DNA of 5,668 bases from a bacterium (GTDB lineage Bacteria > BMS3Abin14). Every line of letters starts with the position of its first letter. Positions within the stretch are counted from its first letter, which is position 1. The translations under genes were made by a program, and so were the position numbers. The stretch spans positions 1 through 5,668 of the forward strand of contig JARGFV010000137.1 of assembly GCA_029210545.1 (NCBI GenBank). The letters run 5' to 3'. Shown here in pieces: positions 131 through 3,740 of the stretch. The notes below the pieces were generated by a model. It was not told the origin of the DNA and made no database searches. It worked only from the letters and a program-made list of their open reading frames with translations.

Positions 131-153
131 GATGAATATGCCGTGGGAGGGCG

Positions 154-209
154 GGTCCGTAGGTCCGTGAGTCTGAAGGCCGTAATTCCGTAGTTCCGTA
201 AAGGCGTGA
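154..209 (-). repeat. 8-bp degenerate repeat array, left arm (array A)
   Basis: On the plus strand the unit is roughly NNTCCGTN. CCG cores fall at 157, 165, 180, 188 and 196, spaced 8, 15, 8 and 8 bp, and a degenerate GCG continues the register at 204. On the minus strand it reads as CGGANNTA units. The 15-bp step contains an 8-bp unit plus a 7-bp unit that has lost the CCG core. The arm faces the opposite way to the array at 225-288, with AAGATCTT (216-223) between them. There is no coding signal. This is not a known repeat family that I can name. Confidence 0.7.
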
Positions 210-224
210 TGCTTTAAGATCTTG

Positions 225-288
225 CGGACGAACGGATCCACGGACACACGGATTTACGGTTCAACGCACACACGCATTCACGCACTTA
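225..288 (+). repeat. 8-bp degenerate repeat array, right arm (array A)
   Basis: Eight consecutive units keep exact 8-bp register: CGGACGAA, CGGATCCA, CGGACACA, CGGATTTA, CGGTTCAA, CGCACACA, CGCATTCA, CGCACTTA. Every unit starts with CG and ends with A, while the middle varies. A further decayed unit (CGAATTTC) reaches 296, right against the stop codon of the leftward transferase gene. The arm is inverted relative to 154-209: the ACGGA blocks can pair with the TCCGT blocks of the left arm (for example 195-199 with 232-236 and 187-191 with 240-244), giving a stem of repeated 5-bp blocks separated by small internal loops. Confidence 0.75.
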
Positions 289-296
289 CGAATTTC

Positions 297-1933
297 TCAG
301 GGATAAGGTTTTCCGGCGGCAAATCGCGGGACCGGCACAAATTCGGACGAGAGGACATCCCTCTCGGGATCGTAATAATCCCCCTTGATCCCCATCAGAC
401 CGAGCAGGGTATGGTCGAGGATGTCGGTCTGATATGGTCTCTCGCTGAAGCGTGCCGCATCCTGCGCGTTGAGGGGAAAAGCCTTCGACCTCCAGAACAG
501 CATGGGGATCTCGAACATGGCCAGGACCCTGTTGTTGTGTCCCACAAAGTTGGAATAGTGGGCGACATCTTCCCCATGGTCGGGAGCGTACAGCCATGCG
601 ATGGACTGGTCCTCGCGTTTGGCGCAAAGATCGATCGTGGACCGGAGGATATGATCGACATAGAGCATGGCGTTGTCGTAGAAGTCACGCATTTTTCTGG
701 CGCGGAGGCTCCGCCCTTCGGACCTGAGCCTCCTGGCGACCTCGTCATCGGCGTCGTTAAAGCGCGCGAAGGCCTCAGGATAGCGGAAATAGAAAGCAGG
801 ATGGGCCTGCAGAAGGTGGAGGATGATAAATTTTCGCGGCGCCCGATCGTCAAGCGCCCTATCCAGTTCGGGCAGGGCCACCTCATCGTAGGAACCTTCC
901 CCCCTGGAGCCACCCCTGTTGACGTTCACCGTAACATCGGCGTGACCGGCGATAATGGAGAGCGCTCCGGCCATGTCGGTGCTGTGATTTGTTATCCAGA
1001 AGGTTTTGTAACCAGCGCTTCTGGCCATGATGAGGATATCAGGGCTTGCGGCGTAAAGCTCTGGCTCCTCGTGGGTCGCCGGCCCCATTATCAGCCTGAT
1101 ATCCCCCACAGTAGAGCCCAGGGTGGTGATCACATCATCGAACCTTGTGAGACTGTCGCCCAGAGCCGCGAGTTCAGGGTTTGTCAGACGGGGATATCCG
1201 AAGATAACCAGTTGTGCCTCGTCACGGACTCACCGAGCACGAAAACGACTGTCCGGGCCCCCTCCCACGTGTACGTCATGGTGGCAAGAGAACTGTCGGT
1301 CGATATTGCTGCCACGATCTTTTCCTGCATGACCCTGGTATTTTCGACACTCCTTTCCCATTTGGCCTTCCGGATGGGAAAATAAAGGAGAGGATTTTCC
1401 TTGCGCATGGTAGGGTTCAGGTGGACCACCGCCAATAGCACCGTCAGGAATATGGCCCCTGCTCTTCCTGCCAGGCTGTGCCGACCGGCAACAACGGGTC
1501 CGCCCGCTTTTTTGAACCTGAAAATGGGGGGACGCCACCCCAGGAGCAGCCAGTATAACGAAACGGCCACCACCAGGACAAAAACATGTTTACCCAGGTA
1601 AAAGATGTTCTGGGAAATAAACTCCGAAGCCTCACCGCCGTTGGTGTTGAAAAGGGCCTCAACGACTATCATATCGTCCTGTGCTACCCCGAACACATCC
1701 CGAAGGAAAGCGTGGTAACCGCTGATGCCCAGGAAAAGGAAGGCCGTCAGGCCGTTGAGCAGCCTTCCGAACCGGCTTTCAGTGCCGTCCCGGACAGTCC
1801 AGGCCGTAAGCGTAAGAATCGTAAGAGCCCCGAGGAAACCGGTTTTCAGAGCCTGGATGACGTTCAACCAGCCCACAGCCCAGTAAATGGTCATGATGAG
1901 AAACCAGCCCGCGGCACGGATGATCAGCTGCAT
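297..1933 (-). pseudogene. Phosphoethanolamine transferase-like membrane sulfatase-fold protein, frameshifted
   Basis: Two reading frames together make one protein of about 545 residues, the usual size for the EptA/CptA (EptC) family, which moves phosphoethanolamine from phospholipid onto lipid A or core sugars at the periplasmic face. The first part (1933-1184) has about five hydrophobic segments (near residues 8-24, 30-46, 60-72, 112-132 and 158-171), then VVFVLGES at the start of the alkaline-phosphatase-like catalytic domain. The second part continues with GYPRLTNPEL, GYKTFWITNH, LHLLQAHP, the metal-binding APDHGED, and FVGHN ahead of EIPMLFW; the FVGH form is closest to CptA-type members. 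One base is missing between the W codon (1210-1208) and the GGA codon (1199-1197). The start at 1933 is chosen because AGGAG (1945-1941) stands 7 nt upstream; a longer in-frame ATG at 1996 has no such site and falls inside the probable promoter region. The true substrate is not known. The frameshift may be real or a sequencing error, because both halves are otherwise undamaged. Confidence 0.85.
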
Positions 1934-1980
1934 GGAAAATCTCCTGATAAATATTTTCTTCCTGTTTCGATTCCAGCTGA

Positions 1981-2009
1981 ACCATACCCAATACAACCGG
2001 TCCGGTCAA
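1981..2009 (-). promoter_or_regulatory. Probable promoter of the phosphoethanolamine transferase-like gene
   Basis: On the minus strand TTGACC (2009-2004) and TATGGT (1986-1981) are separated by 17 nt, matching 5 of 6 and 4 of 6 consensus positions. A start near 1974 would leave a leader of about 40 nt before the ATG at 1933. The palindrome ACCGGTCCGGT (1996-2006) overlaps the spacer and the -35 box and could be an operator, but it may be chance. Confidence 0.45.
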
Positions 2010-2044: not shown

Positions 2045-2115
2045 TGGTCTTACAGGCGAACGGACGTACGGACATACGACATCACGGTCACACGGCCTTC
2101 GGATCTACGGGTCTA
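2045..2115 (+). repeat. 8-bp degenerate repeat array B
   Basis: The units are TGGTCTTA, CAGGCGAA, CGGACGTA, CGGACATA, CGACATCA, CGGTCACA, CGGCCTTC, then a 7-bp GGATCTA, then CGGGTCTA. The form matches the right arm of array A (start CG, end A, variable middle) and has the same orientation. The segment 2092-2116 also resembles the reverse complement of the array A left arm at 162-186 or nearby, including the odd 8+7 bp step after CGGCCTTC. It fills the space between the divergent promoters of the transferase and the CoA ligase. Confidence 0.7.
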
Positions 2116-2122
2116 CTCCTTC

Positions 2123-3536: not shown

Positions 3537-3740
3537 ATGAGGCGTTCATCAAGATCTGTATGTGCAAACATAGCAGAAGCGTGGAAGCGCCGACGTAACA
3601 AACGTGCTTTTATTCCCAGCCTGAACACCGCTGAGAGTGAGGCCAACGAAACGAGAGTGTGGTTGGAGATCGCTTACCGTTGCGGCTACCTTGATATGGA
3701 GAGAAAAGAGGATCTGGATCGGCAATGTGGGGAATCCTGA
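3537..3740 (+). pseudogene. Remnant of a four-helix-bundle protein gene (23S rRNA IVS protein family)
   Basis: The 67-residue translation contains RRSSRSVCANIAEAWKRR, then AFIPSLNTAESEANETRVWL and IAYRCGYLD. This is the core of the small four-helix-bundle family first known from 23S rRNA intervening sequences (TIGR02436/PF05635, also related to the Avd protein of diversity-generating retroelements). Intact members have about 115-125 residues and about 40 residues ahead of the RRSSRSV motif. Here the upstream frame shows none of that first helix and reaches a stop (3492-3494), and the last helix is cut off after LDRQCGES. The ATG at 3537 corresponds to an internal position of the family and has no ribosome site. 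I read it as a decayed gene and not a short functional protein. The 100 bases between it and the CoA ligase stop show nothing recognisable. Confidence 0.75.

Follow-up and report, generated by a model that had tools for sequence, protein, structure and literature searches.

An intergenic stretch of bacterial DNA in which two arms of degenerate 8-bp units stand in opposite orientation raises the question of what such an arrangement is, and what maintains it. The window analysed here, the entire 5668-bp contig C137 of genome G000, contains one such stretch, and a preliminary description made from its letters had offered three readings: an unnamed genomic repeat family, a transcript-end structure, or a protein-binding array. 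We find that this stretch belongs to an intergenic repeat family, apparently undescribed so far, with copies at dozens of boundaries between genes in a small number of uncultured bacteria.

Anatomy of the array in the window

The array takes up the spacer between a sulfatase-domain gene (PF00884, minus strand, ORF end at 297) and a minus-strand neighbour whose first 20 codons (MFKTNRTHYEKRSQVFKALA) we take to be ArsR-like, and its right arm stops 1 bp short of the called sulfatase ORF end. Placed at 154-288 in the preliminary description, the array is real and parses to a slightly longer extent (Table 1). The perfect 8-bp register claimed for eight right-arm units is confirmed, with ACG starting at 232, 240, 248, 256, 264, 272, 280 and 288 and a period-8 identity of 0.62. 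The left arm is, as described, the same unit in the opposite orientation, but its register is less regular, good throughout the CGT starts (158, 166, 181, 189, 197 and 205) except for one 15-bp step. Chain scores of 43 (left arm), 66 (right arm) and 39 (a second array in the window, at 2060-2122) stand against a mean of 8.9 among 120 dinucleotide shuffles of the window, the highest of which scored 14.0; the best period-8 identities (0.64, 0.58 and 0.58) likewise exceed the top value of 300 shuffles, 0.52. Its ACGG units make the window copy a G-rich, divergent version of the family consensus.

Table 1. Coordinates of the octamer arrays in the window and of their parts.
Feature	Position	Strand	Description
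Whole two-armed array	137-295	both	Degenerate 8-bp units ACG[G/C]A[C/T]N[C/T] in two opposed arms around AAGATCTT
Left arm, 9 octamers	137-207	-	PWM chain score 43; shuffle maximum 14
Left-arm units		- (as read)	ACGCCTTT ACGGAACT ACGGAATT ACGGCCTT TCAGACTC ACGGACCT ACGGACCC GCCCTCCC ACGGCATA
Centre palindrome AAGATCTT	216-223		Read from the letters; centre of the 91-site consensus AAGATC-like
Right arm, 9 units	224-295	+	Chain score 66; eight units with ACG in exact 8-bp register
Right-arm units			GCGGACGA ACGGATCC ACGGACAC ACGGATTT ACGGTTCA ACGCACAC ACGCATTC ACGCACTT ACGAATTT
Array core	163-249		Opposite in orientation to the orthologous spacer in G003 and in PFL40 (minus-strand BLAST within plus-strand syntenic alignment)
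Outer right units ACGGTTCAACGCACACACGCATTCACGCACTTACG	256-290	+	Identical at 35/35 positions in G003 and 34/35 in PFL40 (G011)
Second array, a single right-type arm of 8 units	2060-2122	+	Chain score 38-39; between divergent sulfatase and AMP-ligase genes

Just outside the left arm, a promoter-like site (TTGACA-16-TATATT) is located at 103-130 on the minus strand; an operator-like palindrome (TTTGGCAATATAGCCAAA, 97-121) before the ArsR-like start overlaps it and is largely kept in three relatives, bin582 among them. The sulfatase-domain gene (297-1133 and 1184-1996, minus strand) looks frameshift-split, its PFL40 counterpart being a single 1581-bp ORF, and the frameshift could be an error of sequencing in this draft assembly. 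Elsewhere in the window, a short plus-strand ORF (3537-3740) matches PF05635, the 23S rRNA-intervening sequence protein family.

Consensus, polarity and two distinct ends

Alignment of 257 units gives the consensus ACG[G/C]A[C/T]N[C/T], of the form WCGSAYNY. ACG is near-invariant across aligned sites, G and C share position 4 equally, position 7 is near uniform, and the positions are nearly independent of one another. Such strongly unequal positions are those of a motif that is read rather than of slippage of a single unit. The preliminary description had likewise held the pattern of kept and variable bases to be unlike the product of simple slippage.

Among the fetched loci that were parsed, 86 of 88 neighbouring arm pairs point outward and one points inward; the gap between arms ranges from 0 to 97 bp, and 37 of the 86 gaps are multiples of 8. 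When oriented, 91 distinct sites from four genomes yield a single asymmetric consensus with two different ends. Read outward, one arm is NCGCANNY-ACGCTYY-ACGCANNY-ACGCANNY-ACG, with a 7-bp unit in second place, and the other is WCGCAYNY-ACKCAYNY-ACGCTYY-ACGCAYNY-ACG, with the 7-bp unit third; the centre between them is AAGATC-like. The element is composed of two outward arms, each with about 4-9 WCGSAYNY octamers and, in a set position, the 7-bp ACGCTYY unit, around a AAGATCTT-like centre. Its outer ends are not fixed, the number of units varying among sites.

Distribution among genomes

A pattern of five ACG triplets at 8-bp steps occurs 14 times in G000, compared with twice for the reversed control, and is present also in G003 and G011. 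We built a sequence-only search model of 81 positions from 14 compact elements and ran it on the twelve family genomes that make up the comparison set of the phylum. Counting both strands, it matches at least 128 times in G000, at least 100 in G003, at least 38 in G011, at least 17 in G002 and at least once in G008, and among the matches listed there are none in the seven others (G001, G004, G005, G006, G007, G009 and G010). The named relatives PFL40 (G011), bin582 and SZUA-204 are MAGs, all uncultured. Parsing of loci from bin582, SZUA-204 and one distant relative for chains of units found none, and shuffled sequence gives a background of 3 chains per 285 kb. Chains were parsed by unit since the initial pattern, (ACGN5)x, also picked up a second family (ACGGGGAC and similar). 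The model matches across genomes, the outward arm pairs and the 91-site consensus support the suggestion of an unnamed genomic repeat family, and with arrays at many other sites of the genome and in relatives, the stretch is not a case of local decay.

A search of 241 genomes with the model also gave matches in G108 and a single one in G097, both outside the family and the phylum. In a search of 386 genomes for three ACGCANNN units, the exact matches in G108 number 28 (the reversed control carries no information here, as this pattern reads identically backwards), and the two-armed clusters of this genome are outward in six of six cases. G108 carries ACGCAYNY units, and the octamer is therefore present in a second phylum. 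These arrays are found at loci L260, L262 and L289-L299, with another short-unit array (AGTTATTAG) at L260. An array precedes a HIT-family-like gene (MADCIFCKI) once in G108 and once in G000 (L133).

Other short-unit arrays were noticed in passing. A second octamer family (GACACGGGG, ACGGAGAC, ACGCGGGG) is seen at L128 (1107-1178), L141 (2992-3066), L149 (2762-2838) and L156-L160; it often starts directly after a stop codon and in several cases is then followed by an inverted partner, in the order opposite to that of the main family. Arrays of an ACGTTCYC octamer occur at several sites (L046, L052) of G056, an unrelated 5.2-Mb genome, with 62 matches and none for the control. Arrays of ACGCAAAG in G071, G150, G171 and G241 were judged from their letters to be a different repeat.

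Placement relative to genes

Using genes called with a home-made caller trained on codon use, we tabulated the position of elements relative to gene ends, as the preliminary description had proposed, and found that they usually begin at the stop codon of the upstream gene. The cores of 84 of 86 elements are intergenic. Where both neighbours were called, 63 elements lie between co-directional, 12 between convergent and 5 between divergent genes, the difference between the last two classes not being significant (p 0.14). In the co-directional cases the element is nearer to the upstream stop codon in 51 of 61 (p 1e-7), with median distances of 2 bp from the stop and 42 bp from the start. This preference may in part reflect the constraint that promoters and ribosome sites place on the start side.

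Conservation, turnover and copying

G003 and PFL40 both share synteny with the window locus, and in all three the array of the first spacer is present. Its core is inverted in the window relative to these orthologues, with minus-strand BLAST alignments of 163-259 to L068 1915-1827 (79%) and of 188-249 to L065 10313-10252 (87%), and the outer right units are almost perfectly kept (Table 1) within a syntenic stretch that is only about 70% identical. The array of the second spacer is found in the window and in PFL40, where the orthologue has 20 left units and 2 right units, and is missing from G003 and bin582. Indeed bin582 has the same genes as the window and no array in either spacer, so that a given gene can do without one.

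Between genera, ten further sites could be matched as orthologues. At these, core letters agree at 262 of 281 positions (93%), an agreement that is conditional on both orthologues having been detected by a model built on core letters, and free letters agree at 95 of 207 (46%), compared with 38% for random pairs of sites. Two G011 contigs, possibly strain variants, have near-identical flanks and differ by exactly 24 bp, or 3 units. In G003, loci L144 and L146 have one element in common over about 80-90 bp, including about 14 bp past one arm, in otherwise unrelated surroundings, and the two copies differ by one octamer (8 bp) and a few bases. Units are therefore gained and lost, and an element can copy to a new place. 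There is no clear target duplication at the L144 and L146 copies. At L213 (about 1540-1680) a direct repeat, CCGCAGTGAATCACG, borders an element, whose left side is masked. Adjacent units within an arm are weakly similar.

Pairing between the arms

The arms had been described as pairing in 5-bp blocks every 8 bp. They can pair in this way, but we see no selection on the pairing at variable positions, and in the consensus two of the five blocks contain a mismatch between the arms (A-A and T-T). The duplex energy of a site's own arms is -29.1, compared with -31.3 for arms swapped between sites (86 sites), and in 19998 of 20000 within-genome permutations the pairing equals or exceeds that of the real arms. 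We considered that a mixture of two element orientations might account for the low complementarity within sites and rejected this, as the weaker own-arm pairing persists after the sites are oriented (59 sites). Palindrome instability, assembly loss in draft genomes, or selection may be responsible. Analysis of column pairs across sites found no coherent helix or covariation. The fold of the window RNA, which had been proposed as a check on the array region, is no more stable than shuffles (z -1.11); no stem with a T-run terminator is present at the array on either strand; and neither the window nor six loci have an Rfam match above the gathering score. With arms less complementary than swapped ones, a fold z of -1.1 and no terminator, a selected hairpin is unlikely, and the proposal of a transcript-end structure is mostly unsupported, save that elements do start at stop codons. 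The pairing that had been noted arises because a shared consensus stands in inverted orientation. CsrA-type GGA motifs and Rho rut sites, considered for ACGGA and for the C-rich arms, were set aside, as many units read ACGCA and arms are found on both strands.

Possible roles of the arrays

A motif that mixes fixed with free letters, has a strict polarity and two distinct ends, and shows no selection for pairing is best fitted by an array for a protein acting on DNA, and of the functional readings offered earlier it is the protein-binding array that remains. We infer the binding, its action at the DNA level and its consequences from the motif, the polarity and the unselected pairing, and give this explanation, the best we have, an even chance of being right. 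A putative protein would read the octamers in double-stranded DNA, starting at the centre and lining both arms, and the arrays, in the spacer past a stop codon, could then act as platforms for organising the chromosome or for regulation. The one-off copying at L144 and L146 is behaviour like that of a mobile repeat and counts against a binding array, as does the fact that close relatives can lack an array in the same spacer. The main rival is a REP- or MITE-like mobile repeat, in which a transposase or recombinase would recognise the arms as ends and copy the element from spacer to spacer, with effects on the host, if any, being secondary. The L144/L146 copy, which extends beyond the arm into unrelated surroundings, favours it, as do the patchy copy number within one family (0 in seven genomes and about 40-130 in three, among the matches listed) and the two spacers with empty counterparts in bin582. 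Yet dead copies should decay evenly, and most copies are saturated at free letters and conserved at core letters, orthologous sites included. Of 14 Y1-transposase matches, 13 have no octamer array within about 1.5 kb and the fourteenth has nothing more than a weak match of two units (score 14) nearby; no Y1 match occurs in G011, which does have arrays; and the elements have no fixed outer ends, a variable number of units, and no autonomous copy that we have seen. We consider a mobile repeat rather unlikely.

An RNA hairpin at the transcript 3' end (a terminator, mRNA stabiliser or processing signal built of 5-bp blocks and 3-nt internal loops) would account for elements that begin a median of 2 bp from stop codons, mostly between co-directional genes, for arms that are able to pair and keep their overall register, and for a mean site MFE of -33.4 compared with -25.2 for mononucleotide-shuffled sites. 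It is nevertheless improbable, given that own arms pair worse than swapped ones with no covariation and with A-A and T-T mismatches in the consensus, that the window fold (z -1.1) comes with neither T-run terminator nor Rfam match, and that divergent genes flank some of the sites; a hairpin selected for unpaired internal loops may be envisaged. Still further down we place neutral microsatellite growth, in which slippage and template switching fill free spacers with functionless octamers. Variants that differ by whole units (24 bp, 3 units; 8 bp, 1 unit) speak for it, as does the weak resemblance between neighbours within an arm, but independent events would yield locus-specific units, and the sharing of one degenerate consensus, with its polarity and its fixed 7-bp unit, at 91 sites in four genomes, together with the octamer outside the family, makes it very improbable. 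Returning to the binding array, we can conceive of a broader and more speculative scheme, possible although we would not call it probable, in which a putative sequence-specific DNA-binding system common to at least two distant lineages marks many gene ends with asymmetric outward octamer arrays nucleated at a AAGATCTT-like centre. The protein could line DNA both ways and shape chromosome structure or transcription, with arrays spreading rarely as units and then being kept by selection.

Comparison with known systems

A literature search for other descriptions of octamer arrays returned only the Geobacter and TAACTGA reports. REPs are short conserved palindromes of 20-40 bp rather than octamer arrays and are linked to RAYT (Y1) transposases; we rejected REP/BIME elements with RAYT as a match, since no multi-unit array stands beside the 14 Y1_Tnp matches and the arms here are octamer arrays with free letters. 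REP/BIME elements are reported as many palindromic intergenic copies per genome (PMC2817692).

Heptamer direct repeats of TAACTGA, found between genes in Beggiatoaceae and cyanobacteria, are patchy over distant phyla and differ by whole-unit indels (PMC4679880). The present arrays are like them in being intergenic, short in unit, patchy across distant phyla and subject to whole-unit indels, whereas the TAACTGA unit is a near-fixed 7-bp one, on the same strand, placed just before start codons and not in inverted pairs. In Geobacter bemidjiensis, multicopy direct repeats of 6-42 nt occupy many intergenic regions, are mostly lineage-specific and have no known function, according to the main text (PMC2996986). 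The resemblance to the present arrays lies in the short units and the many intergenic regions, as judged from that main-text description, which gives neither unit sequences nor inverted pairing.

Paired tandem octanucleotides have been described in Geobacter metallireducens, with consensus GTTGCTYN (class 1) or TCTCCGTS[Y] (class 2, 8-9 nt), as arrays on opposite strands at variable distance, in 24 and 21 pairs per genome; the main text assigns them hypothetically to global regulators of the IHF/HU type and reports them absent from G. sulfurreducens (PMC2700814). Like both classes, the present arrays have tandem degenerate 8-nt units on opposite strands with a variable gap. They differ in consensus (WCGSAYNY) and in length, with about 4-9 units per arm compared with four or three units per site, and whereas insertion sequences are mentioned near the G. 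metallireducens sites, we see none near the present arrays. The asymmetric 7-bp unit, the placement at stop codons and the conservation of orthologous sites belong to the present family and do not appear in the main text of that report. The second octamer family (ACGGAGAC, ACGGGGAC), which occurs in genomes with WCGSAYNY arrays, resembles G. metallireducens class 2 read on the other strand.

Intergenic octamer arrays have thus been noted before in single genomes (Geobacter) and left unexplained. The comparison across genera adds a consensus, a polarity rule, two ends, unselected pairing, whole-unit turnover and occasional spread, and makes the arrays a testable object, the thing to look for being a putative protein that recognises WCGSAYNY at 8-bp intervals. 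For arrays of this general kind, laboratory access is offered by cultured Geobacter species whose paired arrays are comparable. To judge from the sequences, the paired octamers of G. metallireducens are the closest precedent, and the present family is of the same kind, with a different consensus and a different architecture.
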